Below, piece by piece: positions 1,917-23,103 of a stretch of DNA of 27,370 nt (positions are counted from its first letter, which is position 1; the number at the start of each line of letters is the position of its first letter). Origin of the DNA: a virus. The stretch covers positions 1-27,370 of IMG/VR virus record IMGVR_UViG_3300020416_000054. One strand, given 5' to 3'. Both the position numbers and the translations under genes were made by a program. The notes under the pieces were generated by a model, which was given only the letters and a program-made list of their open reading frames with translations, did no database searches and was not told the DNA's origin.

Positions 1917-2431
1917 TAAAATATTATGATGGCGTCTTTACATCTAAACAATGTAAAGATTTAATTAAAGTATTTGATAACTCAAAGGGACACCATCAAC
2001 CTATCGATACGCCTCTTATGAAGTTTAATCAATATAACTTTACATCTAATCAAATGAATACACCCTTACACCAGGAAATGGTAGAAGGGTTTATGTCATT
2101 AGGCCGTAAATATTTTTCTGATGTAGAAGCAAGAATACTTCCTAATATAGGAGGGTTCGAAGAATTTAGAATTAAAAAATATGTTGAAGGAGGAGACTTC
2201 AAAGAACATATAGATGTAATGAACTATGCTAGTTCTAGAAGAATTGTAGGGTTCTTACTTTATCTAAATGATTGTGATGGTGTTACAACATTTTCTAATC
2301 ATGATGTAACCATAGAACCTAAGACAGGTCGTGTATTAGTTTTTCCACCTACTTGGGAATATCCTCACACAGGAAATAAATCATCTACAGACAAATATAT
2401 AATGTCTACTTACTTGCATTTAGCAGACTAA
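1913..2431 (+). CDS. 2OG-Fe(II) oxygenase (prolyl-4-hydroxylase-like)
   Basis: A 172-aa non-haem iron dioxygenase that would hydroxylate a protein or small-molecule substrate using 2-oxoglutarate and O2. The double-stranded beta-helix signature is complete: H99 and D101 (FKEHIDVM) with distal H152 (EYPHTG) as the iron triad, and K161 (TDKYIMST) in the position that binds the 2OG carboxylate. The segment PKTGRVLVFPPTWEY is typical of phage P4H-like members. I chose ATG 1913, which overlaps the upstream stop as ATGA; a TTG at 1898 would add five residues but has no better ribosome site. Such oxygenases are common in marine T4-like phages with unknown substrate. The gene ends tail-to-tail with a reverse-strand gene, sharing 3 nt. 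Confidence 0.88.
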   Translation: MIKYYDGVFTSKQCKDLIKVFDNSKGHHQPIDTPLMKFNQYNFTSNQMNTPLHQEMVEGFMSLGRKYFSDVEARILPNIGGFEEFRIKKYVEGGDFKEHIDVMNYASSRRIVGFLLYLNDCDGVTTFSNHDVTIEPKTGRVLVFPPTWEYPHTGNKSSTDKYIMSTYLHLAD

Positions 2432-2670
2432 TCCCATTCAGAAAATTTAAGTCTAACAAGAGCTTTTCTTACAATAGCAATACCTGTTAAACCTATAAAG
2501 TTAATAAACGCAGCCATCTCAGATGAGGTGCCTGCGTAGTCTATGCAAGCCTTAATAATGAATACACTTAGAGGGAACATAATAATTGCTCCTAGTGCTG
2601 TATCTACTGTTGCTTCGTGTAATGCTTTTCTTAGTTTACTATTTTGTACCAATCGCCATGAACCTTTCAT
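2428..2670 (-). CDS. Small two-helix membrane protein (DUF7220-like?)
   Basis: An 80-aa protein, the last gene of the leftward operon. It has an N-terminal basic, amphipathic stretch (MKGSWRLVQNSKLRKALHEA), a hydrophobic segment (ALGAIIMFPLSVFIIKA), and a second one (FINFIGLTGIAIV) followed by RKALVRLKF. The pattern of Arg-rich start, Pro in helix 1 and a C-terminal basic turn resembles small phage membrane proteins of the DUF7220 type, but this is a by-eye comparison. I chose ATG 2670 because AAGG lies 7 nt upstream of it; upstream in-frame ATGs at 2685 and 2694 lack a site. It overlaps the methyltransferase-like gene by 32 nt and shares 3 nt with the oxygenase stop codon. Confidence 0.65.
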   Translation of the reverse strand: MKGSWRLVQNSKLRKALHEATVDTALGAIIMFPLSVFIIKACIDYAGTSSEMAAFINFIGLTGIAIVRKALVRLKFSEWD

Positions 2671-3307
2671 AATATACCTTGCCATTCCAATCATAATAGA
2701 ATTGCTTAGTTTTACCGCTGTAGGTAGTATCCTTTAAACCAGCATTTTCAATTAACGCTTTCTCACTATCTACACAATTGATGCCATACATTTCTTCTAT
2801 GACATTTGAATTCTGTACAGCAAATATAGCGTGTTTATTTGCTGTTTTTAAATCTTTCAAAGGATACATTTGTTCTGCTCCCATTGTAATAACTATATCA
2901 ACCTTTAATTGATTTAATTCATCAAATGCGAACGGAATATCCATATTCCAGTGATTTATTTTTATGTATTCTTCTGCTATATAATGCTTATTAAACACCT
3001 TAGAGAGCTCTAAAGCTTCTTTATCGATGTCAACTAGGTGCATTTCTCCTACAGATAAGTTCTCACATAAGAGAGGAACTAAAGGAACTCCTAACCAGCT
3101 GTTTAAGATAAGAATATTAAATTGCTCATCTTTCATATAGTCGTCTAAACTATTCTTTAGTTCTTCTACTAGCCATATAGCAGCTTCCATTGTATTAGGA
3201 TTCAATGCTTGTCTAAAGTCATCATGTTTATGTTTCATTTCATGCTCTACTTTAGCGAGAGCATTGCCCCAATGTTGTAAGTTATTTAAAAAATTAAAAT
3301 TTAACAT
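2639..3307 (-). CDS. SAM-dependent methyltransferase-like protein
   Basis: A 222-aa protein with a Rossmann-type pattern: a glycine-poor motif I (FNILILNSWLGVPLVPLL, residues 63-80), an acidic end of strand 2 (MHLVDIDKEALEL, 89-101) that would hold the SAM ribose, and strand 4 (VDIVITMGAEQMYPL, 136-150). The C-terminal part, with FYYDWNGKVYYERFMAIG, looks like the closing beta hairpin of class I methyltransferases. Motif I lacks the usual GxGxG, so activity is uncertain. I chose ATG 3307, preceded by GGAAGAAAAGAAG; a frame extension to 3364 is covered by the upstream gene. Its place at the end of a glycosyltransferase operon would fit sugar or glycan methylation, which is an inference. Confidence 0.6.
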   Translation of the reverse strand: MLNFNFLNNLQHWGNALAKVEHEMKHKHDDFRQALNPNTMEAAIWLVEELKNSLDDYMKDEQFNILILNSWLGVPLVPLLCENLSVGEMHLVDIDKEALELSKVFNKHYIAEEYIKINHWNMDIPFAFDELNQLKVDIVITMGAEQMYPLKDLKTANKHAIFAVQNSNVIEEMYGINCVDSEKALIENAGLKDTTYSGKTKQFYYDWNGKVYYERFMAIGTK

Positions 3308-3968
3308 CTTCTTTTCTTCCCATTGAATCAAATAAACAGACATATGGTATTTGTCTGAATACATGTTTTTCTATATCATGTGGATATATATAGCCTTGGT
3401 TATAACTATAAAACCACCCTAACGGAAAATATTTAATTCTTGCTACACCCTTGTGCATAAAGAAATTATCTATTCCACGATAGTACCATAATATTTTTTC
3501 TTTGTGTGCTTTAAAATAAAGAGTAATATTTTCTTTATCTAAGTTATCGTTCCATCTTAATATACTAGAATTTAAATCTGTATATCTATGAGGAACATGT
3601 TCTGTTTCTTTTTGTTGTGTTTCTAAATCATGCCAATGTGTCTGTCCAAAACATAGACAATCTTCAGGATCAAAGTTGGCTATATCATCTATATTCTTTT
3701 GTATGATAATATCTAAATCAAAGAAAAGATTCTCACCTTTTTGTCTTACGACATTATCATCGAATAGATACATTTTGTTCCACCACTTTTCTAATTGATT
3801 GCCTTTAGGAAAAGGTATAACTTTTATGTCTTTATCTAGTCCTTTAGATTTTTCAGTTAAACAATAGAATGTAAAGTCTTGCGATATAAACTCTTTACAA
3901 GATTCGTATATCTTATTTACATGTTTGACAGAATATTTACTGCCCCATTTAACTGTATATATGTTCAT
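3294..3968 (-). CDS. GT-A-type glycosyltransferase (paralogue 4)
   Basis: A 224-aa member of the small glycosyltransferase family repeated in this operon. The N-terminus MNIYTVKWGSKYSVKHVNKIY matches the other paralogues, as do FTFYCLTEKSKGL (32-44), the DxD motif in NLFFDLDIIIQ (D84 and D86), which would bind Mn2+ and the nucleotide sugar, LNSSILRW (132-139), RGIDNFF (164-170) and YSYNQG (187-192). It would move a sugar from a nucleotide donor to an unknown acceptor in the cytoplasm. ATG 3968 overlaps the upstream stop as ATGA; a TTG at 3974 is the less likely start. It is shorter than its neighbour because the WFG-type insert before the DxD is reduced to KWWNKMYLF. Confidence 0.78.
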   Translation of the reverse strand: MNIYTVKWGSKYSVKHVNKIYESCKEFISQDFTFYCLTEKSKGLDKDIKVIPFPKGNQLEKWWNKMYLFDDNVVRQKGENLFFDLDIIIQKNIDDIANFDPEDCLCFGQTHWHDLETQQKETEHVPHRYTDLNSSILRWNDNLDKENITLYFKAHKEKILWYYRGIDNFFMHKGVARIKYFPLGWFYSYNQGYIYPHDIEKHVFRQIPYVCLFDSMGRKEDVKF

Positions 3969-4780
3969 TGCCAATGTCTTAATAAATCCGGATCTACCAA
4001 TTCATTTTGTTTAACACTACCTCTACCTTTAAGCATAGGTTTAGGTAATAGATCAATATTAAATACACAAAGGATTGGTGTATCTCTGTATATTTCTGTT
4101 TCTAAATCGTCGTCTTGCCAACTACGACCTCGGTTATATGAGTAAGCATAGTCTGCTGGGAAATGATCCCAAAGTTTTTTGCCCCAATCTCCCCAACGCC
4201 AAGAATGATAATTATCTGTTCCGTCTGTATATGTAAACCAAATCTTTTCTTTGTTTGCTAATACATCTTGCCATATACATTCTGCTTGATCGTCGCTCCA
4301 TACTTGACAACTGCCATTAGTATATGCGCCGTGTGCTAATTTAAATCTTCTTGTTTTCATAGGCCGAGGATCTTGCCACCAACTTCTTAACTTTGTAGGT
4401 CTTTCCATATTATAGGTTAACAAAGGTTCTATATTGTTCTGGATAATTACATCCAAATCAAAGAAGACGAAGCGTCCTGTCGGCTTATCTGTTGCAAAAT
4501 TGTGAGTATTGAAGACAAATGTTTTAGGTCTGTCCCAGCATCTAGCCATGCCATACTTAAAGTCATCAGAGCCGAACCAATACTTAGGATGAATGGTATC
4601 AATGTCTGGAAATGGTATAACCTTAATATCATCATCCAGTCCTTCAGCGTCGTCAGTATAACAGTAAAAATGGAAATCATGTTTAGCATCTGTATGCCTC
4701 CTTGCCATGTTCTTTAGTTTATTCACAAAATGAGGACCATATCTGGTTCCCCATTTTGAACATACTATATTTACTCTCAT
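3965..4780 (-). CDS. GT-A-type glycosyltransferase (paralogue 3)
   Basis: A 271-aa protein, the longest intact glycosyltransferase of the operon. Features shared with the paralogues are the start VNIVCSKWGTRYGPHFVNKL, FHFYCYTDDAEGL (36-48), HPKYWFG (64-70), FVFNTHNF (88-95), the metal-binding DxD in FVFFDLDVIIQ (D108 and D110), TDGTDNYHSW (185-194), YSYNRG (213-218) and CVFNID (238-243). The C-terminal tail continues to WQ. AAGG sits 9 nt upstream of ATG 4780, which overlaps the ThyX stop as ATGA. Donor and acceptor sugars cannot be read from sequence. Closest in architecture to the 7107-7883 gene, suggesting a duplication. Confidence 0.8.
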   Translation of the reverse strand: MRVNIVCSKWGTRYGPHFVNKLKNMARRHTDAKHDFHFYCYTDDAEGLDDDIKVIPFPDIDTIHPKYWFGSDDFKYGMARCWDRPKTFVFNTHNFATDKPTGRFVFFDLDVIIQNNIEPLLTYNMERPTKLRSWWQDPRPMKTRRFKLAHGAYTNGSCQVWSDDQAECIWQDVLANKEKIWFTYTDGTDNYHSWRWGDWGKKLWDHFPADYAYSYNRGRSWQDDDLETEIYRDTPILCVFNIDLLPKPMLKGRGSVKQNELVDPDLLRHWQ

Positions 4781-5460
4781 ATTTCTTTACCTTTAAACTC
4801 ATTTGCTAGCGGAAATACATTACTTATAACTTTGGCAACTTCATTTGCTATAGCTATATGTTCTTTTTGGGTTCCGTTAGCTCCCCTTAATTCTATGTAA
4901 TGAATCCAACTTCTTAAGGTTCCATTTACATACATTCTACTCATAGTATTGCCCTCGGGTAGCACAGCTCTTGCCTGTTCTTTGGCAATGCCATTTTCTA
5001 TTGCCCAACAATATGCTTGTCTAGCATAACGAATAATATCTTTTTGATACTCGTCCCATTGTTTGGCAATTTGAAAACTTTCTATATCAGCTCCCATCTC
5101 GATACTATTTTGTCTGTTCTTTTCATCTTGTAGTCTAGCCTCTCTTGTTACAAACTCTAAATCCTTTGTAGGGTCTGCATATCGTTGACTAAACTCTTGA
5201 AAGCTAAAACTCCTGTGTCTAAGAATTTGTCTACCAATGTCTCTGGTAGTTTCTATTTCTAAACATACACTAACCATTTCTAATGGCGACCAGTGTTTAT
5301 GTTTCATTAGATACTTAATAAGTTTCTCGCTTGTTTCTTTATTGTTTTGGTTATCAGGATTACTAACCCTTGCACAATATGCAACAAGTTCTGTTGCGCT
5401 TGTGGACATTAATAATTCTTTACCATCTGTTTGACTGTGGCTGATTAATTTAACCTGCAT
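4777..5460 (-). CDS. thyX: Flavin-dependent thymidylate synthase ThyX
   Basis: A 227-aa enzyme that makes dTMP from dUMP using FAD, NADPH and methylene-tetrahydrofolate, supplying thymidine for replication of an AT-rich genome. The ThyX signature RHRSFSFQEFSQRY spans 81-94; the usual asparagine of RHRxxSxNxxSxRY is Q88 here. ATELVAYCARVSNP (22-35), HWSPLEMVSVCLEIETTRDI (56-75), EQARAVLP (161-168) and GTLRSWIHYIELR (180-192) are also conserved. Length is in the normal range for the family. AAGGA lies about 11 nt upstream of ATG 5460. It overlaps both neighbours, so it is part of the glycosyltransferase operon, an unusual setting for a nucleotide-synthesis gene. Confidence 0.95.
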   Translation of the reverse strand: MQVKLISHSQTDGKELLMSTSATELVAYCARVSNPDNQNNKETSEKLIKYLMKHKHWSPLEMVSVCLEIETTRDIGRQILRHRSFSFQEFSQRYADPTKDLEFVTREARLQDEKNRQNSIEMGADIESFQIAKQWDEYQKDIIRYARQAYCWAIENGIAKEQARAVLPEGNTMSRMYVNGTLRSWIHYIELRGANGTQKEHIAIANEVAKVISNVFPLANEFKGKEI

Positions 5461-5660
5461 ATGACATAGTCCTTACCGTATTGTTGTTTGTGTTTAGCAA
5501 GCTCTTCCGTGACTTGCATTGTTTTAAATTCATAATCTGTAATATCTGATTTGATAATCAAAACGGCAAAATTAGATTCTTTAACTATTGGCACATAGTT
5601 ATCGTAATCTTCAAATGTACCTTTCAATATTACTGATTTTTCTGTTGTTACTTCTAACAT
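5445..5660 (-). CDS. Hypothetical protein between fusion protein and ThyX
   Basis: A 71-aa mixed alpha/beta protein (MLEVTTEKSVILKGTFEDYD, then FAVLIIKSDITDYEF, then a helix with EELAKHKQQYG). No family recognised, no membrane segment. Its ATG lies inside the last codons of the upstream gene (7-nt overlap) and its 3' end overlaps thyX by 16 nt, so the frame is well constrained by its neighbours. It could be a small partner of either neighbour, but nothing in the protein shows this. Confidence 0.65.
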   Translation of the reverse strand: MLEVTTEKSVILKGTFEDYDNYVPIVKESNFAVLIIKSDITDYEFKTMQVTEELAKHKQQYGKDYVICRLN

Positions 5661-7141
5661 TTTCCACCTTGTTCATTATGTATTACTTTCGGATTTAACT
5701 TTAACAAATTATTAAAGTATCCTTTATAGAAGTCATTTGTAAAAATTTCTTCTAAAGAGTGTTCCTTTATATTATTCTTATCCCAACTATATAATAACTC
5801 TGTCTTGTGTTCAGGAGAGTCATTTGCTGTAATTAGATTAAGAGCCACATGCTTACAAGGGAACACATTTCCTGTTGCGCTTAGATAAAATTTGTTTTCA
5901 ACTTTACCTTCACACTTGACATGTGGAGAAAACTTTATTGTTCTCTCTTTATATATATCATCTTTTTTTCGTGTCTGTAGAGTCTCTAGTTCTATAAGTT
6001 TATAGTCTGGCATATCCTGCTGTTCGTTTTTTTCTATAATTTTTTCTTCTTTAGGAACATTATTTTCATATATAAATCCTGAGAACATATATTGTTTACA
6101 TAGTTTCTTTGCTTTTTGTATATCGTTGTCTAGTTGATTTGTATGTATATAACTCCAAAACACTCTACACCCTACATTAATTAGAGCTTTAGCATTGTCT
6201 AATATTCTTTTATCAGGATTACCTGTGTTTATATTGAAAGTTATGTTGCCTGTATCTGCAAACATAACACCTATATTTTTCCACCATAATGTATCATGTT
6301 CCTTTCCTTCAGTTACCATATCTACACCTATGCCCCAATCAGACATAAAATAATGAGATACATCCATTAGTTCAGGATATAAAATAGGATCTCCATTATC
6401 ATTAATAAATTTAATTCTTTTTAATTTTGCCTTAAGTAGAAAGTCTGAATTAAATCTATCTTTTATCAATTCATAATCTAAGAACTTGTTCTCACTACCT
6501 AAACATATTTCTACTCTTTCAGGCAAATAAGGATATAAGTCTGTTTCCTTGTTATACATCAAGTCTATCTGTTCTTCTGTAAAATCATCATACCAAAAAG
6601 GCAATGCTATTATATTACCTTCAAGTTTTTCTGGGTATGTTGCTGTGGAGTCCTGTAAGAAAGGTAGTTCGCCATCTTCTATAAAAAATTTATTATGGAA
6701 AGCATCATATTCATACAATAAATTATCCTCATCTTCTTCCCATTCCTCTAGAATTTTTTCTACTTTATCGTTTCGGAAAATAAAATATGCTAGGTTACCG
6801 TCCTGCAGTCGAATACGCTTGTTGGTCTTATAAGTCTCTATGTCCCCTATGTTGTTAATAATAGTATTAGGTGTAATAAACAAAGAGCTACTCTTAGGCT
6901 TTGTGTATCTCATTATATCTATTTCTAACCAATCTAATCCATACTTAGGAACATGAAACTCTATACCTTCGATGTAGCCGTCCATCTTTTTGGTTGACAT
7001 AAGCAAATCCATTTCATTATCTTGTACAAAGACAACGAATTCAAAAGGATCTTCTATCAGTTTCTTGCACTGCGTATATAAAGCGTTTATTTGTACCTGA
7101 CTATAATTATTGTCTAGCTGATTTGCTATAATTGTTACCAT
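5654..7141 (-). CDS. Degenerate glycosyltransferase fused to degenerate radical-SAM/SPASM-like domain
   Basis: A 495-aa protein. Residues 1-165 follow the plan of the neighbouring glycosyltransferases (ANQLDNNYSQVQINALYTQC, FEFVVFVQDNE, SSSLFITPNTIINNIGDI), but where they carry DLD this one has TPN (90-92), so the metal-binding DxD is lost. Residues 205-360 resemble a radical-SAM barrel: strand VEICLG (210-215), RIKFINDNGDPILYPEL (242-258) like the GxGEPLLHPEL region, WGIGVDMVTEGK (269-280), GNITFNINTGNPDKRI (298-313), and GCRVFWSYIHTNQLDNDIQKA (324-344). The CxxxCxxC that binds the Fe-S cluster is absent; only C213 stands there. Residues 405-495 look like a SPASM/twitch tail (C410, FYLSATGNVFPC ending at C429, terminal C495). 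ATG 7141 lies 35 nt inside the upstream gene. Domain calls are by eye and tentative. Confidence 0.6.
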   Translation of the reverse strand: MVTIIANQLDNNYSQVQINALYTQCKKLIEDPFEFVVFVQDNEMDLLMSTKKMDGYIEGIEFHVPKYGLDWLEIDIMRYTKPKSSSLFITPNTIINNIGDIETYKTNKRIRLQDGNLAYFIFRNDKVEKILEEWEEDEDNLLYEYDAFHNKFFIEDGELPFLQDSTATYPEKLEGNIIALPFWYDDFTEEQIDLMYNKETDLYPYLPERVEICLGSENKFLDYELIKDRFNSDFLLKAKLKRIKFINDNGDPILYPELMDVSHYFMSDWGIGVDMVTEGKEHDTLWWKNIGVMFADTGNITFNINTGNPDKRILDNAKALINVGCRVFWSYIHTNQLDNDIQKAKKLCKQYMFSGFIYENNVPKEEKIIEKNEQQDMPDYKLIELETLQTRKKDDIYKERTIKFSPHVKCEGKVENKFYLSATGNVFPCKHVALNLITANDSPEHKTELLYSWDKNNIKEHSLEEIFTNDFYKGYFNNLLKLNPKVIHNEQGGKC

Positions 7142-7883
7142 GCCAAATTCTCAAAAGTGTTTCATTTTCTAATTCATCTATTTTTATTTGTTTCTTACTA
7201 GGATTAGAATCCACATTGAACAAACAAAACTTAGGTTCTTTTCTATATTTATGTGCCTCTAAATCTGTCGGATGAGTCATACCTCTGTTCCAACTATATA
7301 CCCATTCAAAAGGAATATTATTCCAAAAGTCTCTTTGACGCCAAAAGTGATAGTTATCTGTACCCTTAAAGAATGTTCTAAATATTTGTTGATCTTCATC
7401 TAATGCGTCCCAGAATATATGTTCACATTGATCTTTGTTCCAACACATTACACTAGAGTTATATAATGTACCTCTAATCTCTATAAACAATCTTTCATGT
7501 ATTCTTTTCTTCCAATTATCCCACATAACATGAATGATTCTAGGCTTAAGAGCCAATTCATGTAAGTCTGTTATATCATTTTGTATAATTACATCTAAGT
7601 CTAAGTAACACCATTTGCCGTCATACTGTAAAAAGTTATGAGAGTTGAATACTAAAAATTTAGATCTATCCCAACACCAGCGTTCTTTACCAAACCAATA
7701 TTTAGGATGTAAAGGTTCTATATCAGGTATATCACGAGTATCACACTCTAATCCTTTATTGTCATCTGTAAAACATGTAAAGGTAAAGTCTCTTTTGTAA
7801 TGCTCCTGTACCATACGATACAGATTGTTTACATAGTGTGGTTCGTATTTAGTGCCCCACTTGATGCATACAAAGTTCATCAT
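7107..7883 (-). CDS. GT-A-type glycosyltransferase (paralogue 2)
   Basis: A 258-aa glycosyltransferase of the same family. Landmarks are MNFVCIKWGTKYEPHYVNNLY, FTFTCFTDDNKGL (33-45), HPKYWFG (59-65), FLVFNSHNF (76-84), DxD in CYLDLDVIIQ (D95 and D97), YNSSVMCW (141-148), FKGTDNYHFW (172-181), YSWNRG (196-201) and CLFNVDSNP (220-228). The conserved NSSVMxW and GTDNYHxW segments are likely acceptor-side or active-site loops. Two adjacent ATGs (7883 and 7880) could start it; neither has a strong ribosome site. It overlaps the first gene of the operon by 35 nt and the fusion gene by 35 nt. Target unknown; virion protein or host surface glycans are the main candidates. Confidence 0.8.
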   Translation of the reverse strand: MMNFVCIKWGTKYEPHYVNNLYRMVQEHYKRDFTFTCFTDDNKGLECDTRDIPDIEPLHPKYWFGKERWCWDRSKFLVFNSHNFLQYDGKWCYLDLDVIIQNDITDLHELALKPRIIHVMWDNWKKRIHERLFIEIRGTLYNSSVMCWNKDQCEHIFWDALDEDQQIFRTFFKGTDNYHFWRQRDFWNNIPFEWVYSWNRGMTHPTDLEAHKYRKEPKFCLFNVDSNPSKKQIKIDELENETLLRIWHGNNYSKSARQ

Positions 7884-8517
7884 ATTCTTTTGCTATCTCC
7901 GGTCTTCTATCTAATCCATTTAATAAACATATGGTATATTCTGGCCTATACTTTCTTCCAGCAGCTACATACGCATATACTTCATTGTGTGGTAAGTGTT
8001 CAAATGTAAATCCTTCATGATACAAAAATGTATCATCTCCATATGGATATTGTACATCATATGTTTCAGGATATGAGCTATAGTGTTCCCATATATGTGT
8101 AGCATCTTTCCACAACATTACACTAGAATTATAATTACTTAATGGTCCTACAAAGTCTGGTTGCCATGGAAAGTCATGTATGCTTATTTGTTTATCGCCT
8201 TTATCCTTCCACCATGTATATACGATTACAGGGTTATCCTGACAATAATCAAACAAATGATCTATGGGTTTTTGTATTCTTACATCTAAATCTAAGTACA
8301 ATATAGTACCTAGATCTTTTAATTGAAACAGTTTTAACTTTTCCATATTGCCGTTTGGCTCGTGTTCTAGATACAATATACCTATATCTGGGTGTAATCC
8401 TTTAGGATCATCGGTTACACAGACATAGTTATATTTGCCTTCGGTATGTTCGTATATAGAGTTTACAGCATCTGCGCTGTATTTCTCACCATATTTTAAT
8501 GTTAAAATAGTTTTCAT
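7849..8517 (-). CDS. GT-A-type glycosyltransferase (paralogue 1, operon head)
   Basis: A 222-aa glycosyltransferase, first gene of the leftward operon. Landmarks: ILTLKYGEKYSADAVNSIY, YNYVCVTDDPKGL (29-41), DxD in TILYLDLDVRIQ (D76 and D78), SNYNSSVMLW (127-136), YGDDTFLYHEGF (159-170) in place of the GTDNYH loop, EVYAYVAAG (179-187) and CLLNGLDRRPE (197-207). The YGDDTFL form suggests a different acceptor from the other paralogues. I chose ATG 8517; a TTG at 8526 would add three residues. No Shine-Dalgarno site precedes it, and the nearest late-promoter box ends only 12 nt upstream, so one of its two candidate transcripts would have a leader of only about 7 nt. Confidence 0.78.
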   Translation of the reverse strand: MKTILTLKYGEKYSADAVNSIYEHTEGKYNYVCVTDDPKGLHPDIGILYLEHEPNGNMEKLKLFQLKDLGTILYLDLDVRIQKPIDHLFDYCQDNPVIVYTWWKDKGDKQISIHDFPWQPDFVGPLSNYNSSVMLWKDATHIWEHYSSYPETYDVQYPYGDDTFLYHEGFTFEHLPHNEVYAYVAAGRKYRPEYTICLLNGLDRRPEIAKEYDELCMHQVGH

Positions 8518-8529
8518 TGTAATCAATAT

Positions 8530-8537
8530 TATTTATA
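8530..8537 (-). promoter_or_regulatory. T4-type late promoter box, leftward operon (proximal)
   Basis: On the reverse strand this reads TATAAATA, the T4 sigma-gp55 late-promoter consensus. It forms the left part of a perfect 12-bp palindrome, TATTTATAAATA (8530-8541). A start about 6 nt downstream would give an extremely short leader before ATG 8517. Confidence 0.6.
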
Positions 8538-8541
8538 AATA
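8534..8541 (+). promoter_or_regulatory. T4-type late promoter box for fibre/neck genes
   Basis: Exact TATAAATA on the + strand, 32 nt upstream of ATG 8574, with a ribosome site (GAAGGA, 8564-8569) between them. It shares bases with the reverse-strand box at 8530-8537. Confidence 0.75.
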
Positions 8542-8552
8542 AGAGTGTACGA

Positions 8553-8560
8553 TATTTATA
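8553..8560 (-). promoter_or_regulatory. T4-type late promoter box, leftward operon (distal)
   Basis: Reverse-strand TATAAATA 23 nt upstream of the proximal leftward box. A start near 8547 would give a leader of about 30 nt before ATG 8517. The box lies in the 5' leader of the rightward transcript. Confidence 0.55.
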
Positions 8561-8573
8561 GACGAAGGAACCA

Positions 8574-8903
8574 ATGGCAACCATTTCTAACATAGTCATA
8601 GATCAGGGCACAACATTCAGTTTGGAACTGAATTTAACCAATGATGATAATTCTGCCAAAAATTTAGCAGATTATACAGTTACCTCTCAAATAAGAAAAA
8701 GTTATGAGGCAACAACAGCTACTGATTTTACTACAGCGAAAGTAGATGCTACAGGTAAAATAACAATATCGTTGACTGCAGCACAAACGGCTGCACTCAA
8801 AGCAGGACGATATGTTTACGACATAGAGATAGCATCTAGTGCCGAAACATTAAGAGTCTTAGAAGGATTAGTAACCGTAACACCTAATGTTACAAGAGCT
8901 TAG
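8574..8903 (+). CDS. Ig-like virion structural protein
   Basis: A 109-aa, beta-rich protein (SNIVIDQGTTFSLELNLTND, NLADYTVTSQIRKSY, KITISLTAAQTAALKAGRY, VYDIEIAS, LRVLEGLVTVTPNVTR). This pattern is the small Ig-like module seen in baseplate or fibre-attachment proteins of marine T4-like phages and in the N-terminal part of BppU-type baseplate proteins. It would be a virion component near the fibres. GAAGGA precedes the ATG. It is the first gene behind the shared late promoter and ends 8 nt before the next gene. Confidence 0.7.
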   Translation: MATISNIVIDQGTTFSLELNLTNDDNSAKNLADYTVTSQIRKSYEATTATDFTTAKVDATGKITISLTAAQTAALKAGRYVYDIEIASSAETLRVLEGLVTVTPNVTRA

Positions 8904-8911
8904 GAGATTAT

Positions 8912-9169
8912 ATGGCAACGACAGTAAACGCTTCTAATACACCAATTAAAGTTTCTACTTCTATTGGTAGTACAAGAGTAGTTTCATCGACAACTACACA
9001 ATCTGCAACGGCGACGGCCACAGAAATCGGAGATCTCACAGGCATAGATGTTTCAGGTAAGCAAAACGGATACACCTTAGTATATGATAGTAGCAGTGGT
9101 AATTGGCAAGCTAAACCAGCATCGTCTGTAGCAGCATCAGTTACCTCTATTGATGGTGGAACATTTTAG
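8912..9169 (+). CDS. Small fibre-associated structural protein
   Basis: An 85-aa protein rich in Ser, Thr and Ala (STTTQSATATATEIGDLTGI). The middle (GKQNGYTLVYDSSSGNWQAKP) is the 'fibre knob' style seen at the ends of phage fibre repeats. Its last residues SIDGGTF nearly match the GIDGGTY end of the next fibre protein, and the DNA shares ATTGATGGTGGAACAT. This suggests a short fibre protein, or a shared C-terminal assembly tag. GGAG ribosome site at 8903-8906. Confidence 0.65.
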   Translation: MATTVNASNTPIKVSTSIGSTRVVSSTTTQSATATATEIGDLTGIDVSGKQNGYTLVYDSSSGNWQAKPASSVAASVTSIDGGTF

Positions 9170-9170
9170 T

Positions 9171-9186
9171 ATATTAAGCTTAATAT
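9171..9186. repeat. 16-bp perfect palindrome between fibre genes
   Basis: ATATTAAGCTTAATAT just after the stop of the 85-aa gene. It could form a small hairpin in RNA or a dyad in DNA. No run of T follows, so it is not a clear terminator. Confidence 0.5.
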
Positions 9187-9214
9187 TATAGAACATTTAA
9201 CTAGGAGAAAATAA

Positions 9215-10639
9215 ATGGCAACAACAATTCAAATTAAAAGAAGCACAGGCTCAGCAGCCCCAGCAGCTTCGGATTTGGTTGAAGGCGAATTGGCGTATGC
9301 TGAGGATAGATCCGGCGACGGGGCATCTGCTAAGTTATACATTTCATCTATTGACTCAGGTAGTAGTGAAGTAATTCAAGCGATTGGAGGTAAATTTTAT
9401 ACTGATCTTCTTGATAACGCTACAAACGCAGCAACAGCTTCTACCATTGTAAAAAGAGATTCAAATGGAGATGTCATATTTAATAAAATTTTATATGGCA
9501 ACTTGTATTCAACTGAAGGAGATCTACCAAGTGCTTCTACTTACCATGGTATGTTTGCTCATGTACATGGCACAGGTAGAGGTTATTTTGCACATGGTGG
9601 CAACTGGATTAAATTGTTGGATGAATCTTCATTCACATCCTCGGGTGTATTTGTAGATGAAGACAACATGGCATCTGACAGCGCTTCAAAGGTACCTTCA
9701 CAACAATCAGTCAAAGCGTATGTAGACGCACAAGTTACAGCTAGTGATTTAGATGCAGCTGGAGATTCTGGAACAATAGATATAGATCTAGATTCGGAAT
9801 CATTAACAATAGCAGGTGGCACAGGTATTACAACTGCAGCATCTGGCACAACTATTACAGCAACACTAGATGACACAGCAGTTACAGCAGGTTCATATGG
9901 TTCTACAACAGCAGTTCCAGTAATTACTGTTGACGCACAGGGTCGTATTACATCAGCTTCAACATCAGCAATCTCAACCTCATACACATTAGCAGCCGAT
10001 TCAGGTTCTAATGATTCTGTAGCAGGTGGAGAAACAATAACATTTAGTGGTACAGCAAACGAAATTGAAACAACAGTTTCTAATAACGAAATAACAATCG
10101 GCTTACCTAACAATGTAACAATATCAGGTAACCTAACCGTTAGTGGTACAACCACAACTGTAGATTCCACAACTTTATCCGTAGCAGATCCATTGATCTC
10201 ACTAGCAACAGGTAACAATTCATCTGACGCAGTGGACATAGGTCTATATGGTTTATATGACACTTCAGGTTCAACAGACTTGTATTCAGGTTTATTTAGA
10301 GACGCTAATGACTCTGGTAAATGGAAGTTATTTAAAGACTTACAAGCAGCACCTACTACAACTGTCAACACAGGCGGAACAGGTTACGCAGTAGCTACAT
10401 TGGTAGCAAACTTAGAATCATCTAGTGTAACAATTACTGGTGGTTCAATAACAGGTATTACTGATCTGGTAGTAGCAGACGGTGGTACAGGAGCAGGATC
10501 ATTTACAAGTAAAGGTATCCTTTATGGTAATGGAACAGGAGCTCTACAAGTAACAGCAGCAGGCTCAGAAGGACAAGTCCTACAAGCAGGCTCAGGCGGA
10601 ACACCAGAGTTCGGTGGAATTGATGGTGGAACATATTAA
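9215..10639 (+). CDS. Tail fibre / virion protein with Mtd-like N-terminus
   Basis: A 474-aa fibre-like protein. Residues 1-60 (TTIQIKRSTGSAAPAASDLVEGELAYAED, KLYIS) match the major tropism determinant N-terminal type that attaches fibres to the virion. Residues 113-131 hold MFAHVHGTGRGYFAHGGNW, with His-x-His motifs like the metal-binding ones of T4 fibres. SKVPSQQSVKAYVDAQV (158-174) and beta-repeat segments follow. Residues 299-400 carry the module NNVTISGNLTVSGTTTTVD ... LVANLE, which also occurs in the 11200-12480 fibre. The C-terminus is GxGxG-rich (GGTGAGSFTSKGILYGNGTG) and ends in GIDGGTY. Likely part of the receptor-binding apparatus and a plausible glycosylation target. AGGAG ribosome site at 9203-9207. 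Confidence 0.8.
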   Translation: MATTIQIKRSTGSAAPAASDLVEGELAYAEDRSGDGASAKLYISSIDSGSSEVIQAIGGKFYTDLLDNATNAATASTIVKRDSNGDVIFNKILYGNLYSTEGDLPSASTYHGMFAHVHGTGRGYFAHGGNWIKLLDESSFTSSGVFVDEDNMASDSASKVPSQQSVKAYVDAQVTASDLDAAGDSGTIDIDLDSESLTIAGGTGITTAASGTTITATLDDTAVTAGSYGSTTAVPVITVDAQGRITSASTSAISTSYTLAADSGSNDSVAGGETITFSGTANEIETTVSNNEITIGLPNNVTISGNLTVSGTTTTVDSTTLSVADPLISLATGNNSSDAVDIGLYGLYDTSGSTDLYSGLFRDANDSGKWKLFKDLQAAPTTTVNTGGTGYAVATLVANLESSSVTITGGSITGITDLVVADGGTGAGSFTSKGILYGNGTGALQVTAAGSEGQVLQAGSGGTPEFGGIDGGTY

Positions 10640-10659
10640 TAATTTTTAAGGATTTTGAA

Positions 10660-10854
10660 ATGGATGAACAATTAATTAATGAATACATAAACAACTTGGC
10701 AAATCAGGTTAATACTCTGACCCAAGAAAATATTTTACTTAAAACTAGATTAGCTATTTTTGAGAAGAGAGAACAGGAAAAGGCTAAGGCTTCAGAGCCT
10801 GAGCCTTCCTCCCAAGAAGAGGAAACTCCTCCTCTAGTCTCTAAAGAGGAATAA
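10660..10854 (+). CDS. Small coiled-coil protein
   Basis: A 64-aa protein with an N-terminal heptad-like helix (INEYINNLANQVNTLTQENILLKTRLAIFEKRE) and an acidic, Pro/Ser-rich tail (SEPEPSSQEEETPP). AAGGA (10649-10653) precedes the ATG and the gene ends 3 nt before the next one. A trimeric coiled coil next to fibres suggests an assembly helper or a fibre linker; this is inference. Confidence 0.65.
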   Translation: MDEQLINEYINNLANQVNTLTQENILLKTRLAIFEKREQEKAKASEPEPSSQEEETPPLVSKEE

Positions 10855-10857
10855 TAG

Positions 10858-11178
10858 ATGGCAACGGTAATCAAGATTAAAAAATCCGAAACAGCTGGTA
10901 GCGCTCCTACCACTTCGGATTTAGTTGCAGGTGAGGTAGCACTTAATACTGCAGATAAGATTGCCTATGTAAGAAACTCTAGTAATCAGATTATAAAGTT
11001 TGCAAACTTTACTGATGCAGATGAATCTATAACATTCCCTACAGGAGATTGGGGTAGTGTAGCTTCTAGTTTAAGTACAGATGCGTTTGGACAACTTGTT
11101 GAAAAAGAATACGATATGAATACAACTATTAAATATCGTTTAGCAACAGAAGATATGGGTTCAGACTCATCAATATAA
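10858..11178 (+). CDS. Small Mtd-N-like structural protein
   Basis: A 106-aa protein whose first half (MATVIKIKKSETAGSAPTTSDLVAGEVALNTADKIAYVRNSSNQI) repeats the N-terminal attachment pattern of the 474-aa fibre (residues 1-50). It then has a short unrelated segment (FGQLVEKEYDMNTTIKYRLATEDMGSDSSI). This is a stand-alone attachment-type domain without a fibre shaft. It may be an adaptor between the tail and a longer fibre. The stop codon overlaps a late-promoter box. Confidence 0.65.
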   Translation: MATVIKIKKSETAGSAPTTSDLVAGEVALNTADKIAYVRNSSNQIIKFANFTDADESITFPTGDWGSVASSLSTDAFGQLVEKEYDMNTTIKYRLATEDMGSDSSI

Positions 11179-11181
11179 ATA
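11174..11181 (+). promoter_or_regulatory. T4-type late promoter box before fibre gene
   Basis: Exact TATAAATA overlapping the stop codon of the 106-aa gene, 18 nt upstream of ATG 11200, with AGGAGAG as the ribosome site between them. Confidence 0.65.
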
Positions 11182-11199
11182 AGAATATAGGAGAGAATA

Positions 11200-12480
11200 A
11201 TGCCAACACAGGTACAATTTAGACGAGGGACAACTACACAAAACGAATCCTTCACAGGTGCTGTGGGTGAGCTTTCCGTAGATACTACGCTAGACACAAT
11301 AAGAGTACATGACGGTTCCACAGCAGGTGGCTTTAGACTCGCTAAATACTCTGAAATAACATCTGGAGATACCACAGGAAACGCAGCTACAGCAACTGCA
11401 TTACAAAATGCAAGAACAATTCATGGCGTATCTTTTGATGGTACAGCAAATATAGATCTTTCAGAAGTTATTCAAGATACTGTAGGGGCTATGTTCTCAA
11501 GTAACACCGAGACAGGTATAACTGTTGGTTACGAAGATGGCGATGGTACTATTGATTTGGTAGTAGGAACATTAAATCAAGATACTACCGGGAACGCAGC
11601 TACGGCCACAGCATTAGAAACTGCTAGAAATATAGGTGGTGTATCATTTGATGGTACAGCAAATATAAATTTACCGGGTGTTAATACATCAGGAACACAA
11701 GACACCTCAGGTAACGCAGCTACAGCAACAGCTCTTGCAAATGCAAGAACAATAAATGGTGTTAGTTTTGATGGTACAGCAAATGTAACCACACTAACAG
11801 CAGGAACAGGTGTATCAGTTTCAGGTACAGCAGTTTCAATAGGACAAGCAGTAGCAACATCAAGTAATGTTACATTTGCAGATGTAGCAGCAACAGGTAA
11901 TGTAACTATTACAGGAAACTTAGATGTAAATGGAACAACTACAACCTTAGATACTACAAACTCAACAATAGCAGATAGACTTATTGAGTTAGGTAATGGC
12001 ACATCTGGAACACCATCAAATGATATGGGTATTGTTCTCGAAAGAGGAGACTCAGATAACGCATTTATAGGTTGGGACGAAAGTGCAGACAAGTTCCTAA
12101 TGGGAACAGGCTCATTTACAGGAGCAAGCACAGGCAATCTTACAGTTACAACAGGAACACTTGTAGCAAACTTAGAAGGTAATGTTACAGGTAATTTAAC
12201 AGGTAACGCAGACACAGCAACAGCACTTGCAACAGCAAGAGCTATAGCACTAACAGGAGATGTTACAGGTACAGCAAACTTTGACGGTTCAGCAGGTATA
12301 TCAATTAGTGCAACTATTGCAGCTAATAGTGTTGCTTTAGGTACAGACACTACAGGTAATTTTATGGCACAGGTTGCAGGTGGAGATGGTATTACAGTTT
12401 CTCATACACAAGGAGAAGGTTCTACGGCAACTATTACAGGAACAGCTATATACGACGCATCAGGAACAAAACTTAACTAG
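11200..12480 (+). CDS. Repeat-containing tail fibre protein
   Basis: A 426-aa fibre protein. The N-terminus PTQVQFRRGTTTQNESFTGAVGELSVD is the attachment module common in marine phage fibres. Three close repeats follow (residues 58-87, 128-157, 168-197) built on DTTGNAATATAL.(N/T)AR.I.GVSFDGTAN, with a decayed fourth at 330-362 (TGNADTATALATARAIALTG). Residues 223-325 (NVTFADVAATGNVTITGNLD ... GTLVANLEG) match the module in the 474-aa fibre. Near the end, GDGITVSHTQGEGSTATITG is also shared-type shaft sequence. It is likely a shaft of triple-beta-helix type. No chaperone or adhesin tip is obvious. The gene ends 9 nt before gene 13. Confidence 0.78.
   Translation: MPTQVQFRRGTTTQNESFTGAVGELSVDTTLDTIRVHDGSTAGGFRLAKYSEITSGDTTGNAATATALQNARTIHGVSFDGTANIDLSEVIQDTVGAMFSSNTETGITVGYEDGDGTIDLVVGTLNQDTTGNAATATALETARNIGGVSFDGTANINLPGVNTSGTQDTSGNAATATALANARTINGVSFDGTANVTTLTAGTGVSVSGTAVSIGQAVATSSNVTFADVAATGNVTITGNLDVNGTTTTLDTTNSTIADRLIELGNGTSGTPSNDMGIVLERGDSDNAFIGWDESADKFLMGTGSFTGASTGNLTVTTGTLVANLEGNVTGNLTGNADTATALATARAIALTGDVTGTANFDGSAGISISATIAANSVALGTDTTGNFMAQVAGGDGITVSHTQGEGSTATITGTAIYDASGTKLN
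11371..11790 (+). repeat. Three ~90-bp coding repeats in fibre gene
   Basis: Units at 11371-11460, 11581-11670 and 11701-11790, each encoding about 30 residues with GNAATATAL and GVSFDGTAN. A decayed fourth copy lies at 12187-12285. Repeats are in frame and protein-level similarity exceeds DNA identity. Confidence 0.75.
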
Positions 12481-12489
12481 GGGTAGAAA

Positions 12490-13467
12490 ATGGCATTAGC
12501 TAGCAGACAAAATTTACAAGATTACGCCTTAAGAAGGCTAGGCCACCCTGTTATTGAAATCAATGTAGATGAACAACAATTATCTGATAGAATAGATGAT
12601 GCTTTACAATTCTTTCAAGAATATCACTTTGATGGTGTAGAAAGAACTTATGTTAAACATGAAATAACAGGTTCTAAATTAAAATTAACTGCCAACCTAG
12701 CAAACAATTTTCAGAAAGCAGAAACTATTACAGGCGGAACATCAGGAGCTACAGCAATAGTAGATGGCGCTGATGATACAGCACAGTTTATATTATTAGA
12801 ACAAACTAAAACAGGCACCTTTGTAGGAGGAGAAACTATTACAGGCTCTGAGTCAGGAGCAACAGCAACTACACACGCAAGTGATACATACACAAAAGGC
12901 GATATTGAAAATGGATATTTGCCTATTAGTAATGGTATATTAGGTATAACCAGAGTGTTTAACTTTGGAGGTGCAGCAACAAACAATACAAGAGACGGAC
13001 AACTATTTGATCTAATGTACCAATTTAGAATGAATGATCTGTATAACCTAATGGGTGCAGACATGATTTACTATTCAGTCGTACAAACTCACTTAACTAC
13101 ATTAGAAAAACTACTAACAGGGGATAGACAAATCCGTTGGAATAGGAAAACAGATAGATTGTATATTGATACTGACTGGGACAAAACATTTAATATAGGA
13201 GACTTTATTGTAGCAGAAGCTTATGCCATTGTAGATCCTGATACATATACAGAAGTCTATGATGATATGTTTCTTAAAAAATATGTAACAGCATTGTTCA
13301 AGAAACAATGGGGCGAAAATATTAAGAAATTTGCTGGAATACAAATGCCTGGAGGAGTAACATTAGATGGACAAACTATCTATCAAGAGGCAATTCAGGA
13401 GATACAAGCAATAGAACAGGAGATGCAACTTAAATACGAACTGCCTCCTTCACTTATGATAGGATAA
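12490..13467 (+). CDS. 13: Neck protein gp13 with inserted repeat domain
   Basis: A 325-aa homologue of T4 gp13, which with gp14 forms the neck that closes the packaged head and joins it to the tail. The N-terminus SRQNLQDYALRRLGHPVIEINVDEQQLSDRIDDALQFFQEYHFDG and the C-terminal half (MYQFRMNDLYNLMGADMIYY, WNRKTDRLYIDTDWDK, KKYVTALFKKQWGENIKKF) are the conserved body. Residues 60-135 are a Thr/Gly/Ala-rich insertion with two copies of a motif: ETITGGTSGATA and ETITGSESGATA. It is a little longer than T4 gp13 (309 aa). AGGGG precedes the ATG. Confidence 0.9.
   Translation: MALASRQNLQDYALRRLGHPVIEINVDEQQLSDRIDDALQFFQEYHFDGVERTYVKHEITGSKLKLTANLANNFQKAETITGGTSGATAIVDGADDTAQFILLEQTKTGTFVGGETITGSESGATATTHASDTYTKGDIENGYLPISNGILGITRVFNFGGAATNNTRDGQLFDLMYQFRMNDLYNLMGADMIYYSVVQTHLTTLEKLLTGDRQIRWNRKTDRLYIDTDWDKTFNIGDFIVAEAYAIVDPDTYTEVYDDMFLKKYVTALFKKQWGENIKKFAGIQMPGGVTLDGQTIYQEAIQEIQAIEQEMQLKYELPPSLMIG
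12709..12879 (+). repeat. Two-copy GETITG-type repeat inside gene 13
   Basis: Copies at 12709-12765 and 12820-12879 encode KAETITGGTSGATAIVDG and VGGETITGSESGATATTHA, about 37 residues apart. Such motifs occur in beta-structured virion add-on domains. Confidence 0.65.
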
Positions 13468-13471
13468 TACC

Positions 13472-14221
13472 ATGCCTACTAATAATTATTTTCAGAACGG
13501 CGGTGGAATTGGTACAACAAACGAACAGCGCTTAATAGAAGATCTAATTATCGAGAGCCTTAAAATATATGGCCACGATACTTTTTACTTGCCTAGAACA
13601 ATGGTAAATAGTGATACAATCTTTGATGAGGCACAACTATCTCAATTCACACAAGCATATCCTTTAGAAATGTATTTGGATAATGTCCAAGGATTTGAGG
13701 GGCAGGGAGATATATTCACAAGATTTGGTATGGAAGTTAGAGATCAAGCAACTTTCATACTAGCAAAAAGACGATGGGAGGACATGGTAACAAGACAAGG
13801 TCCTACTGTTGCTCGTAAAGCAAGACCTGTAGAAGGAGACTTAATTTATCTTAGTAAAACAAAATCATTGTTTGAAATTAAATATGTAGATTTCCAAAAT
13901 CCTTTCTATCAGGCAGGACAAATATATGTATTTAGAATGACATGTGAATTGTTCGAATACAGTTCAGAAGATTTAGATACAGGCATAGCAGAAATAGATG
14001 CTATAGAAACAAAATACTCTCAAGATATGTTGGAGTATCAGTTTAAACTAGAGTCAGGAGATTTACTATTGAAAGAAGACACAGGTTCATTAATTACAGA
14101 AGCATATCAAACAACTGTATCTGAACCTATAGATAATGCAGACTTTGATAACTTAATAACACTAGAAGGTATATTAGACTTTAGTGAATCTAATCCATTT
14201 GGTGAAATAGGAGGCTCGTAA
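13472..14221 (+). CDS. 14: Neck protein gp14
   Basis: A 249-aa homologue of T4 gp14 (256 aa), the partner of gp13 in the neck. The N-terminus is characteristic: NYFQNGGGIGTTNEQRLIEDLIIESLKIYG, DTFYLPRTMVN, and later MEVRDQATFILAKRRWEDMV. AGGA lies upstream of the ATG, 4 nt after gp13. The stop overlaps the gp15 start (TAATG), so 13-14-15 form a coupled unit. Confidence 0.92.
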   Translation: MPTNNYFQNGGGIGTTNEQRLIEDLIIESLKIYGHDTFYLPRTMVNSDTIFDEAQLSQFTQAYPLEMYLDNVQGFEGQGDIFTRFGMEVRDQATFILAKRRWEDMVTRQGPTVARKARPVEGDLIYLSKTKSLFEIKYVDFQNPFYQAGQIYVFRMTCELFEYSSEDLDTGIAEIDAIETKYSQDMLEYQFKLESGDLLLKEDTGSLITEAYQTTVSEPIDNADFDNLITLEGILDFSESNPFGEIGGS

Positions 14222-17264: not shown

Positions 17265-19181
17265 ATGGCATTTCAGCTATCACCAGGTGTTCTTGTTAAA
17301 GAAACAGACCTTACTAGCGTTATCCCTGCAGTCGCTACTTCAATAGGAGCTTTTGTAGGAGATTTTGCGTGGGGTCCAGCAGGCGAGATCACAACAATTA
17401 GTTCAGAGAACCAGCTTGTTGAGCGGTTCGGAGAGCCTAATGATACTACTGCAATAAGTTTTTTTACTGCAGCAAGTTTCTTGGCTTATGGAAATAACCT
17501 TAAAGTAGTCAGAGCAATAGATGATACTACAGCAGTTAATGCTGTTGCATCAGGTTCAGCAACACTGATTAAAAATGAAGAAGACTACGATAACAACCAT
17601 TCAACCGGAGCAGGTTCAAATGGTATGTGGGCAGCTAAATATCCTGGAGCTTTAGGTAATTCACTTAAAGTTGCATTGGCAGATTCTAGCAATTTTGATA
17701 CTAACTCTGTAGCATCTGCTACTATTACAGCAGGAGGTTCTGGTTATACATCAGCTCCAACTGTAACTTTTGCAGCTGCACCAGCAGGCGGAACTACTGC
17801 TACAGGTACTGCTACAATAAGTGGCGACGCAGTAGCAAGTATCACTATTACTAATGCCGGTGAAGGGTACACATCAGCCCCAGCAATAACATTCAGTGGT
17901 GGAGGCGGTTCTGGAGCAGCAGCTACAGCAGTCTTATCTACTGATTGGACATATAAAAACGAATTCGACAGAGCCCCTGGCACTACTATTGGAGCAGCCA
18001 GAGTAGGTGGTTCAAAAGATGAAGTTCACATTGTCGTTGTAGACGAAGACGGCCTATTTTCAGGCACAGCAGGTACAGTATTAGAAAGATTCGCACATAC
18101 TTCTAAAGCATCAGATGTTAAGGGGTTAGAAGGTGGATCTATTTTCTATAAAGATGTAGTTAATACACAGTCTGAATACATATATTGGACGGATCACCCA
18201 GCAGGAGATGCTACATGGGGAACATCCGCTGCTAATACAGCATTCACATCAGGATTTACAGCAGCAGAAGCTACTGTTTCATTAACAGGCGGTGTTTCTG
18301 ATAGTCCTGATTCAGGCGATATACAAACAGCTTGGACTTTATTCCAAGATGCAGAACAGACAGATATAAACTTGTTATTGACAGGTGGTATTAGTCTTGT
18401 TGATCAAAAATTTGTACAAGATAATATTGCTAAAACAAGAAAAGATTGTGTATCTTTCCACTCACCACAATTTGCTAGCTGCGTGAACAACGCAGGTTCA
18501 GAAGTAACAAGTATTACTACTGATAAAGGCTCACTAGCAGCAACCAGTTATAGTTTCATGGATAGTAACTGGAAATATATGTACGATCGTTACAACGATG
18601 TTTTCAGATGGATTCCACTAAATGGAGACACAGCAGGTCTTTGTGTTGCAACAGACGACGCAAGAGATGCTTGGTTCTCACCAGCAGGATTTAACAGAGG
18701 ACAAATTAGAAATGCTGTTAAATTAGCATGGAGTCCTAACAAGGCTAACAGAGATGACTTATACAAAATAGGAGTCAATCCTGTAATCAATAGCCCAGGA
18801 AACGGTATTGTACTGTTCGGAGATAAAACTCTATTAGCAGCACCTAGTGCATTTGATAGAATTAATGTTCGAAGATTGTTTATTGTTCTTGAAAAAGCTA
18901 TATCTACAGCAGCTAAATTCCAGCTGTTTGAGTTTAACGATGCATTTACAAGAAATCAGTTTACATCGATAGTTAATCCTTTCTTAAGGAATGTTCAAGG
19001 TCGTAGAGGAATACACGACTTTAAAGTAGTATGTAATGAAAGCAACAATACAGATCAAGTTATTTCATCTAACTCGTTCGTTGCAGACATTTTTATTAAA
19101 CCTAATAGAAGTATTAACTTTATTACACTTAACTTTATTGCTACTAGAACAGGCGTTAACTTCGAAGAGATTGGTGGTTAA
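17265..19181 (+). CDS. 18: Tail sheath protein gp18 with inserted repeats
   Basis: A 638-aa contractile sheath subunit (T4 gp18, 659 aa). The N-terminus [34 protein letters not shown] and the C-terminal domain ([72 protein letters not shown]) are the conserved core that polymerises around the gp19 tube. Residues about 149-225 form a Gly/Thr/Ala-rich insert with two copies of GxGYTSAPxxTF (159-169 and 200-210), likely on the outer surface. Expressed from its own late promoter with a strong ribosome site. Confidence 0.95.
17721..17894 (+). repeat. Two-copy GYTSAP repeat inside gene 18
   Basis: Copies at 17721-17771 and 17844-17894 encode [17 protein letters not shown] and [17 protein letters not shown], 41 residues apart. 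Both are in frame and lie in the Gly/Ala-rich insert. Confidence 0.75.
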
Positions 19182-23089: not shown

Positions 23090-23103
23090 TATAAATATAA
23101 ATA
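23090..23103 (+). promoter_or_regulatory. Overlapping double late-promoter box before gene 22
   Basis: TATAAATATAAATA contains two exact TATAAATA boxes, at 23090-23097 and 23096-23103, 49-62 nt before ATG 23153. GAGGAGAG is the ribosome site. Confidence 0.7.

Follow-up and report, generated by a model that had tools for sequence, protein, structure and literature searches.

A palindromic late-promoter box, probably read in both directions, between glycosyltransferase and tail-fibre genes of marine T4-like phages

Introduction

Can a single promoter box serve two operons that point away from each other? The question is raised by a 56-bp intergenic gap (8518–8573) in the window, by which is meant the whole stretch of 27,370 nucleotides analysed here. 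The window is a 27-kb virus record with structural genes in a T4-like layout, and comes from a marine T4-like phage. The gap separates the ATG of a glycosyltransferase-like gene (8517, reading leftwards) from that of a tail-fibre assembly-like gene (8574, reading rightwards). An initial annotation had pointed out a palindrome in this gap, and had proposed that one shared late box drives both the leftward and the rightward operon.

In T4, late transcription depends on three proteins, gp55, gp33 and gp45 (PMC2988020), and late boxes span positions −13 to −6 (PMC1524935). The genes for these proteins lie outside the 27-kb fragment and were looked for in G001, a 170-kb relative. G001 encodes homologues of the HTVC008M proteins, with identities of 52% (gp55), 40% (gp33) and 32% (gp45).

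The junction and its flanking operons

The palindrome is found exactly where the initial annotation had placed it: a perfect 12-bp palindrome, TATTTATAAATA, with TATAAATA on both strands. The full symmetry extends to 14 bp (TTATTTATAAATAA). On either strand the match to the TATAAATA consensus of T4-type (gp55) late promoters is exact, and the conserved 12-bp palindrome has the form of a shared −10 element, symmetric and usable on both strands (Table 1).

Table 1. Features at and around the divergent junction (window coordinates).
Feature	Position	Strand	Basis
Palindromic shared late-promoter −10 box (predicted)	8529..8542, core 8530-8541	none	Sequence and conservation
Rightward late box TATAAATA, fibre/neck operon; predicted +1 = 8547	8534..8541	+	T4 geometry, −13 to −6 (PMC1524935)
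Leftward late box TATAAATA, glycosyltransferase/thyX operon; predicted +1 = 8524	8530..8537	-	T4 geometry
Second leftward TATAAATA; predicted +1 = 8547	8553..8560	-	Sequence
Shine-Dalgarno-like GAAGGA before the fibre-assembly ATG at 8574	8565..8570	+	Sequence
First leftward gene, glycosyltransferase-like (GT), 222 aa, phrog_1962	7849..8517	-	
Leftward unit of overlapping genes: several glycosyltransferase-like, SPASM-like, ThyX, small proteins	2428..8517	-	
First rightward gene, L-shaped tail-fibre assembly-like protein, 109 aa, phrog_1084/3304	8574..8903	+	
Rightward unit: fibre genes, then neck genes gp13 and gp14	8574..14221	+	
Neck gene gp13	12490..13467	+	
Neck gene gp14	13472..14221	+	

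Such a site is improbable by chance. The window contains 12 copies of TATAAATA where shuffled sequences contain 4.9 on average, and only one of 100 shuffles reaches 12. The exact 12-mer occurs once, against 0.017 expected from a second-order Markov model; allowing at most one mismatch, there are three occurrences (0.63 expected). The decisive evidence against a chance origin is that the core is kept in all 41 distinct intergenic sequences from close relatives.

The rightward box lies upstream of virion genes (fibre assembly, fibres, gp13, gp14), and one further late box occurs within this unit, at 11174. None of the leftward genes is a classical late gene. Their description in the initial annotation as a glycosyltransferase operon holds for the several glycosyltransferases, and is incomplete in that thyX and other genes belong to the unit too; the GT-like genes, ThyX and the SPASM-like protein form a single overlapping unit adjoining the fibre genes. 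The sole exact reverse boxes for the whole leftward unit are the two in the gap; none is internal.

The closest counterparts of the fibre-assembly protein among sequenced isolates come from Melnitz (Methylophilales) and from HTVC008M and Mosig (Pelagibacter), followed by cyanophages. The first GT has no match among 50,697 sequenced phage records, and the search turned up no cultured phage that carries this gene pair.

Conservation of the palindrome

Two scans yielded 160 loci, which correspond to 48 distinct intergenic sequences between the divergent GT/fibre pair. These were divided into a close set of 41 sequences (GT identity at least 69%) and a distant set of seven (GT identity at most 54%). 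In the close set, the 12-bp core is invariant throughout, as is an AG that follows the palindrome, and the full 14 bp are kept in 32 sequences. Of the 24 flanking columns, 23 vary and one is invariant. The 41 sequences are mutually related; hence, the comparison was made over columns, and sequences were not counted as independent. The left half-site, TATT, which is needed only for leftward reading and is invariant in 41/41, stands out from the flanks even when taken by itself (Fisher p=2.4e-4). Judged by this column pattern, the palindrome is under strong selection in marine T4-like phages.

Spacing to the genes differs between the two sides. Of 42 sequences, 36 have the GT start codon 12–13 nt away from the reverse box and the other six have it 23–24 nt away, while the distance from fibre start to forward box varies from 23 to 36 nt. 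An in-frame TTG/GTG located 3 nt past the reverse box was considered as the true GT start and rejected, as it is not conserved.

The additional reverse box at 8553–8560, also noted in the initial annotation, is present at that place; it accompanies the palindrome only in the window sequence and in L004 among the 48 distinct sequences, and the explanation developed here works without it. It is probably accessory or incidental. As the main leftward promoter it was rejected, since just one of the 47 distinct sequences besides that of the window has it in addition to the palindrome. Together with the forward box at 8534, the reverse box at 8560 makes a face-to-face pair; late boxes with the same geometry occur in T4 at 77349–77371, in the gap between the divergent late genes 4 and 53.

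Dependence on gene arrangement

Other gene arrangements indicate what the symmetry accompanies. Where the gene ahead of the fibre-assembly gene points the same way (HTVC008M, Melnitz-1, Melnitz-3, S-SRM01), the forward box is kept and the palindrome is never seen. In Mosig, P-HM2 and ACG-2014f, there is no exact box directly before the fibre-assembly gene. The palindrome is also absent from the seven distant divergent relatives; six of these retain the forward box, and in three (L140, L145, L146) a reverse box stands apart, close to the fibre start. Two single boxes in place of one shared box are what selection for two promoters predicts.

The relative G001 contains exactly one other palindrome, at 162681–162692, again between divergent genes (for an unknown 533-aa protein and a tail assembly chaperone-like protein). 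This second site is kept in five of six relatives besides G001, and the sixth (L199) has separate forward and reverse boxes instead. The search for the same palindrome between divergent operons of related phages, which the initial annotation had suggested, has been positive in all 41 distinct sequences of the close set and at this second G001 site.

Known counterparts

The nearest known counterpart is in T4 itself. In its genome (NC_000866), the sole TATTTATAAATA lies at 116450–116461, in the gap between the divergent late genes 26 and 51, and GenBank entry M77695 annotates overlapping TATA boxes for both genes at this palindrome. Four more T4-like phages, from other lineages (Mosigvirus, Karamvirus, Dhakavirus and Klebsiella phage TNG87), have the same 26/51 palindrome; Ac42 carries two overlapping single boxes instead. 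The window site is of the T4 26/51 type, with TATTTATAAATA between divergent genes of which at least one is late, and the two gaps are alike in having the same 12-bp sequence and in size (about 50 bp in T4). They differ in that T4 26/51 is a baseplate hub gene pair, and both of its genes have the Shine-Dalgarno sequence AAAGGAG, starting roughly 17 and 21 nt away from the respective boxes; in the window, the leftward start is only 12 nt from its box and lacks a Shine-Dalgarno sequence. To this already known type of two-way late box the window adds, on good support, a new example, and it places the type in marine T4-like phages, between genes unrelated to the T4 pair.

Outside the phages, E. 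coli has an established class of bidirectional promoters in which both directions share one symmetric −10 element (Warman et al.; PMC12825309). As is proposed for the window, this element accommodates two mutually exclusive polymerase orientations. The starts predicted for the window from T4 geometry are 23 bp apart; in the E. coli class, distances of 18, 10 and 23 bp between starts are common (PMC12825309). The E. coli promoters work with sigma-70, −35 elements and activators, whereas the window site would use a predicted phage late sigma and sliding-clamp activation, with no −35 element.

T4-like cyanophages have the same box in their late promoters (NATAAATA), upstream of virion genes (PMC2984593). 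The cyanophage boxes described there are single and act in one direction, in contrast to the palindromic box of the window, and the palindrome was not found in P-HM2, ACG-2014f, S-SRM01, S-PM2 or syn9. The literature searched gave no description of bidirectional, divergent or palindromic late promoters.

Proposed mode of action

Taken together, these observations make it very probable that gp55-type late transcription sets out from the palindrome in both directions, at predicted positions 8547 (+) and 8524 (-). A gp55-type late sigma factor on host RNA polymerase, aided by gp33 and the sliding clamp gp45, would recognise TATAAATA; the symmetry of the box would allow a single 12-bp site to be recognised either way round. 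Polymerase bound in one orientation would start near 8547 and produce the fibre/neck mRNA; bound in the opposite orientation, it would start near 8524 and produce the glycosyltransferase/thyX mRNA with a leader of only 7 nt (GAUUACA). Since the two bound states would exclude each other, one site would split late initiation between two operons.

The proposal of one shared late box in the initial annotation thus stands as far as the box itself is concerned: the half-sites are invariant in both orientations, the palindrome is lost beside a co-directional neighbour, separate boxes appear in distant divergent relatives, and T4 genes 26/51 have the same layout. The actual starts, their timing and mutual exclusion at the palindrome are inferred, and so are the simultaneous expression of the two operons and their competition for polymerase. 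On shared boxes of E. coli, competition between opposing polymerases arises only under strong initiation; by analogy, clamp-activated late promoters may reach this competing regime.

For this phage group, the spacing of late boxes from start codons gives independent support to the −13 to −6 geometry. Four relatives, G001 (L168-L176), HTVC008M, Melnitz-1 and Mosig, together have 92 TATAAATA boxes that precede an ORF. Exactly 5 nt separate the box from the ATG in 15 of these, and distances of 0–4, 6 or 7 nt do not occur. The corresponding distribution for 55 anagrams of the box is flat (23 of 1597 at 5 nt). For boxes at this 5-nt distance, T4 geometry makes the A of AUG itself position +1, so leaderless late mRNAs are predicted. 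Elsewhere, the 5-nt pattern occurs three times in S-SRM01 and once in T4, and was not found in P-HM2, ACG-2014f, S-PM2 or syn9.

These spacings bear on a point against the bidirectional promoter, namely that the predicted 7-nt GT leader has no Shine-Dalgarno sequence. Such a leader would suit a phage group in which very short leaders appear to be tolerated. In L038, L039, L044 and L057, an SD-like AAAGGAG begins immediately beyond the reverse box; starting at T4 distance would remove most of it, which calls for caution about the exact leftward start.

Alternative readings

In one variant of the bidirectional promoter, both boxes are promoters and an upstream host-type promoter additionally switches the leftward operon on at an earlier time, with the late box providing a second phase. 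Both can hold, and the variant is conceivable, if on the unlikely side. ThyX typically has an early or middle function. At the second G001 palindrome, the stretch from the reverse late box to the leftward gene includes a TTGACA element, and both early and late promoters have been proposed for middle-mode genes of RB49 and cyanophages (PMC2984593). Against it, there is no convincing sigma-70-like promoter upstream of the leftward unit: sigma-70-like sites near the junction show no excess over shuffles, and an early sigma-70 promoter for this unit was rejected, the sites found being of chance number. A weak early promoter may lie inside the fibre gene.

It is much less probable that the rightward box is the only promoter here, the left half being AT-rich context or chance and leftward transcription starting elsewhere, from an early promoter or the 8553–8560 box. 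The forward box does precede the fibre gene also where no divergent neighbour is present, a start from the 8553–8560 box would give a longer leader of about 30 nt, and the fibre gene contains two weak sigma-70-like sites on the reverse strand. Their number equals the shuffle expectation, however, and the 8553–8560 box recurs only in L004. The invariant left half also argues against a one-way promoter, as does the distribution of TATT-preceded TATAAATA across five phages: all copies are within the three palindromes, each between divergent starts.

Finally, perfect symmetry and strict conservation would also suit a dimeric-regulator site or other symmetric DNA element with a secondary likeness to late boxes, but this is scarcely credible given that each half is an exact 8-bp late consensus, that a single box suffices in co-directional contexts, and that, unlike a dimer site, the element splits into two separate late boxes in L140, L145, L146 and L199.

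Implications and further late boxes

As a two-way late promoter, the palindrome would tie a sugar-transferase/thymidylate operon to the virion programme. It may also have a use beyond sharing. In T4, the sliding clamp activates late promoters according to its own orientation, which is set by the nicked strand (PMC2988020). Because clamp orientation governs activation and the box has no direction of its own, the symmetric box could conceivably be a polarity reader, with the clamp orientation left by replication picking either the fibre/neck or the glycosyltransferase operon; this idea is speculative and rather doubtful. The site offers a compact natural template for asking if late transcription takes its direction from clamp orientation, and hence from the direction of replication.

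Other late boxes in this group show further arrangements. Upstream of the scaffold gene, the window has two overlapping tandem late boxes, TATAAATATAAATA (23090–23103), and G001 has them in the matching place (86499–86512). Examples of the 5-nt class include the gp2 homologue of G001 (40299–40284, -) and gp2 of HTVC008M (18929–18914, -). The latter belongs to the 26 bp that separate the divergent genes gp2 and gp4 (18917–18942), which have a 5+8+8+5 layout: TATAAATA leftward and TCTAAATA rightward stand back-to-back, each 5 nt from its ATG, and both mRNAs are predicted to be leaderless.
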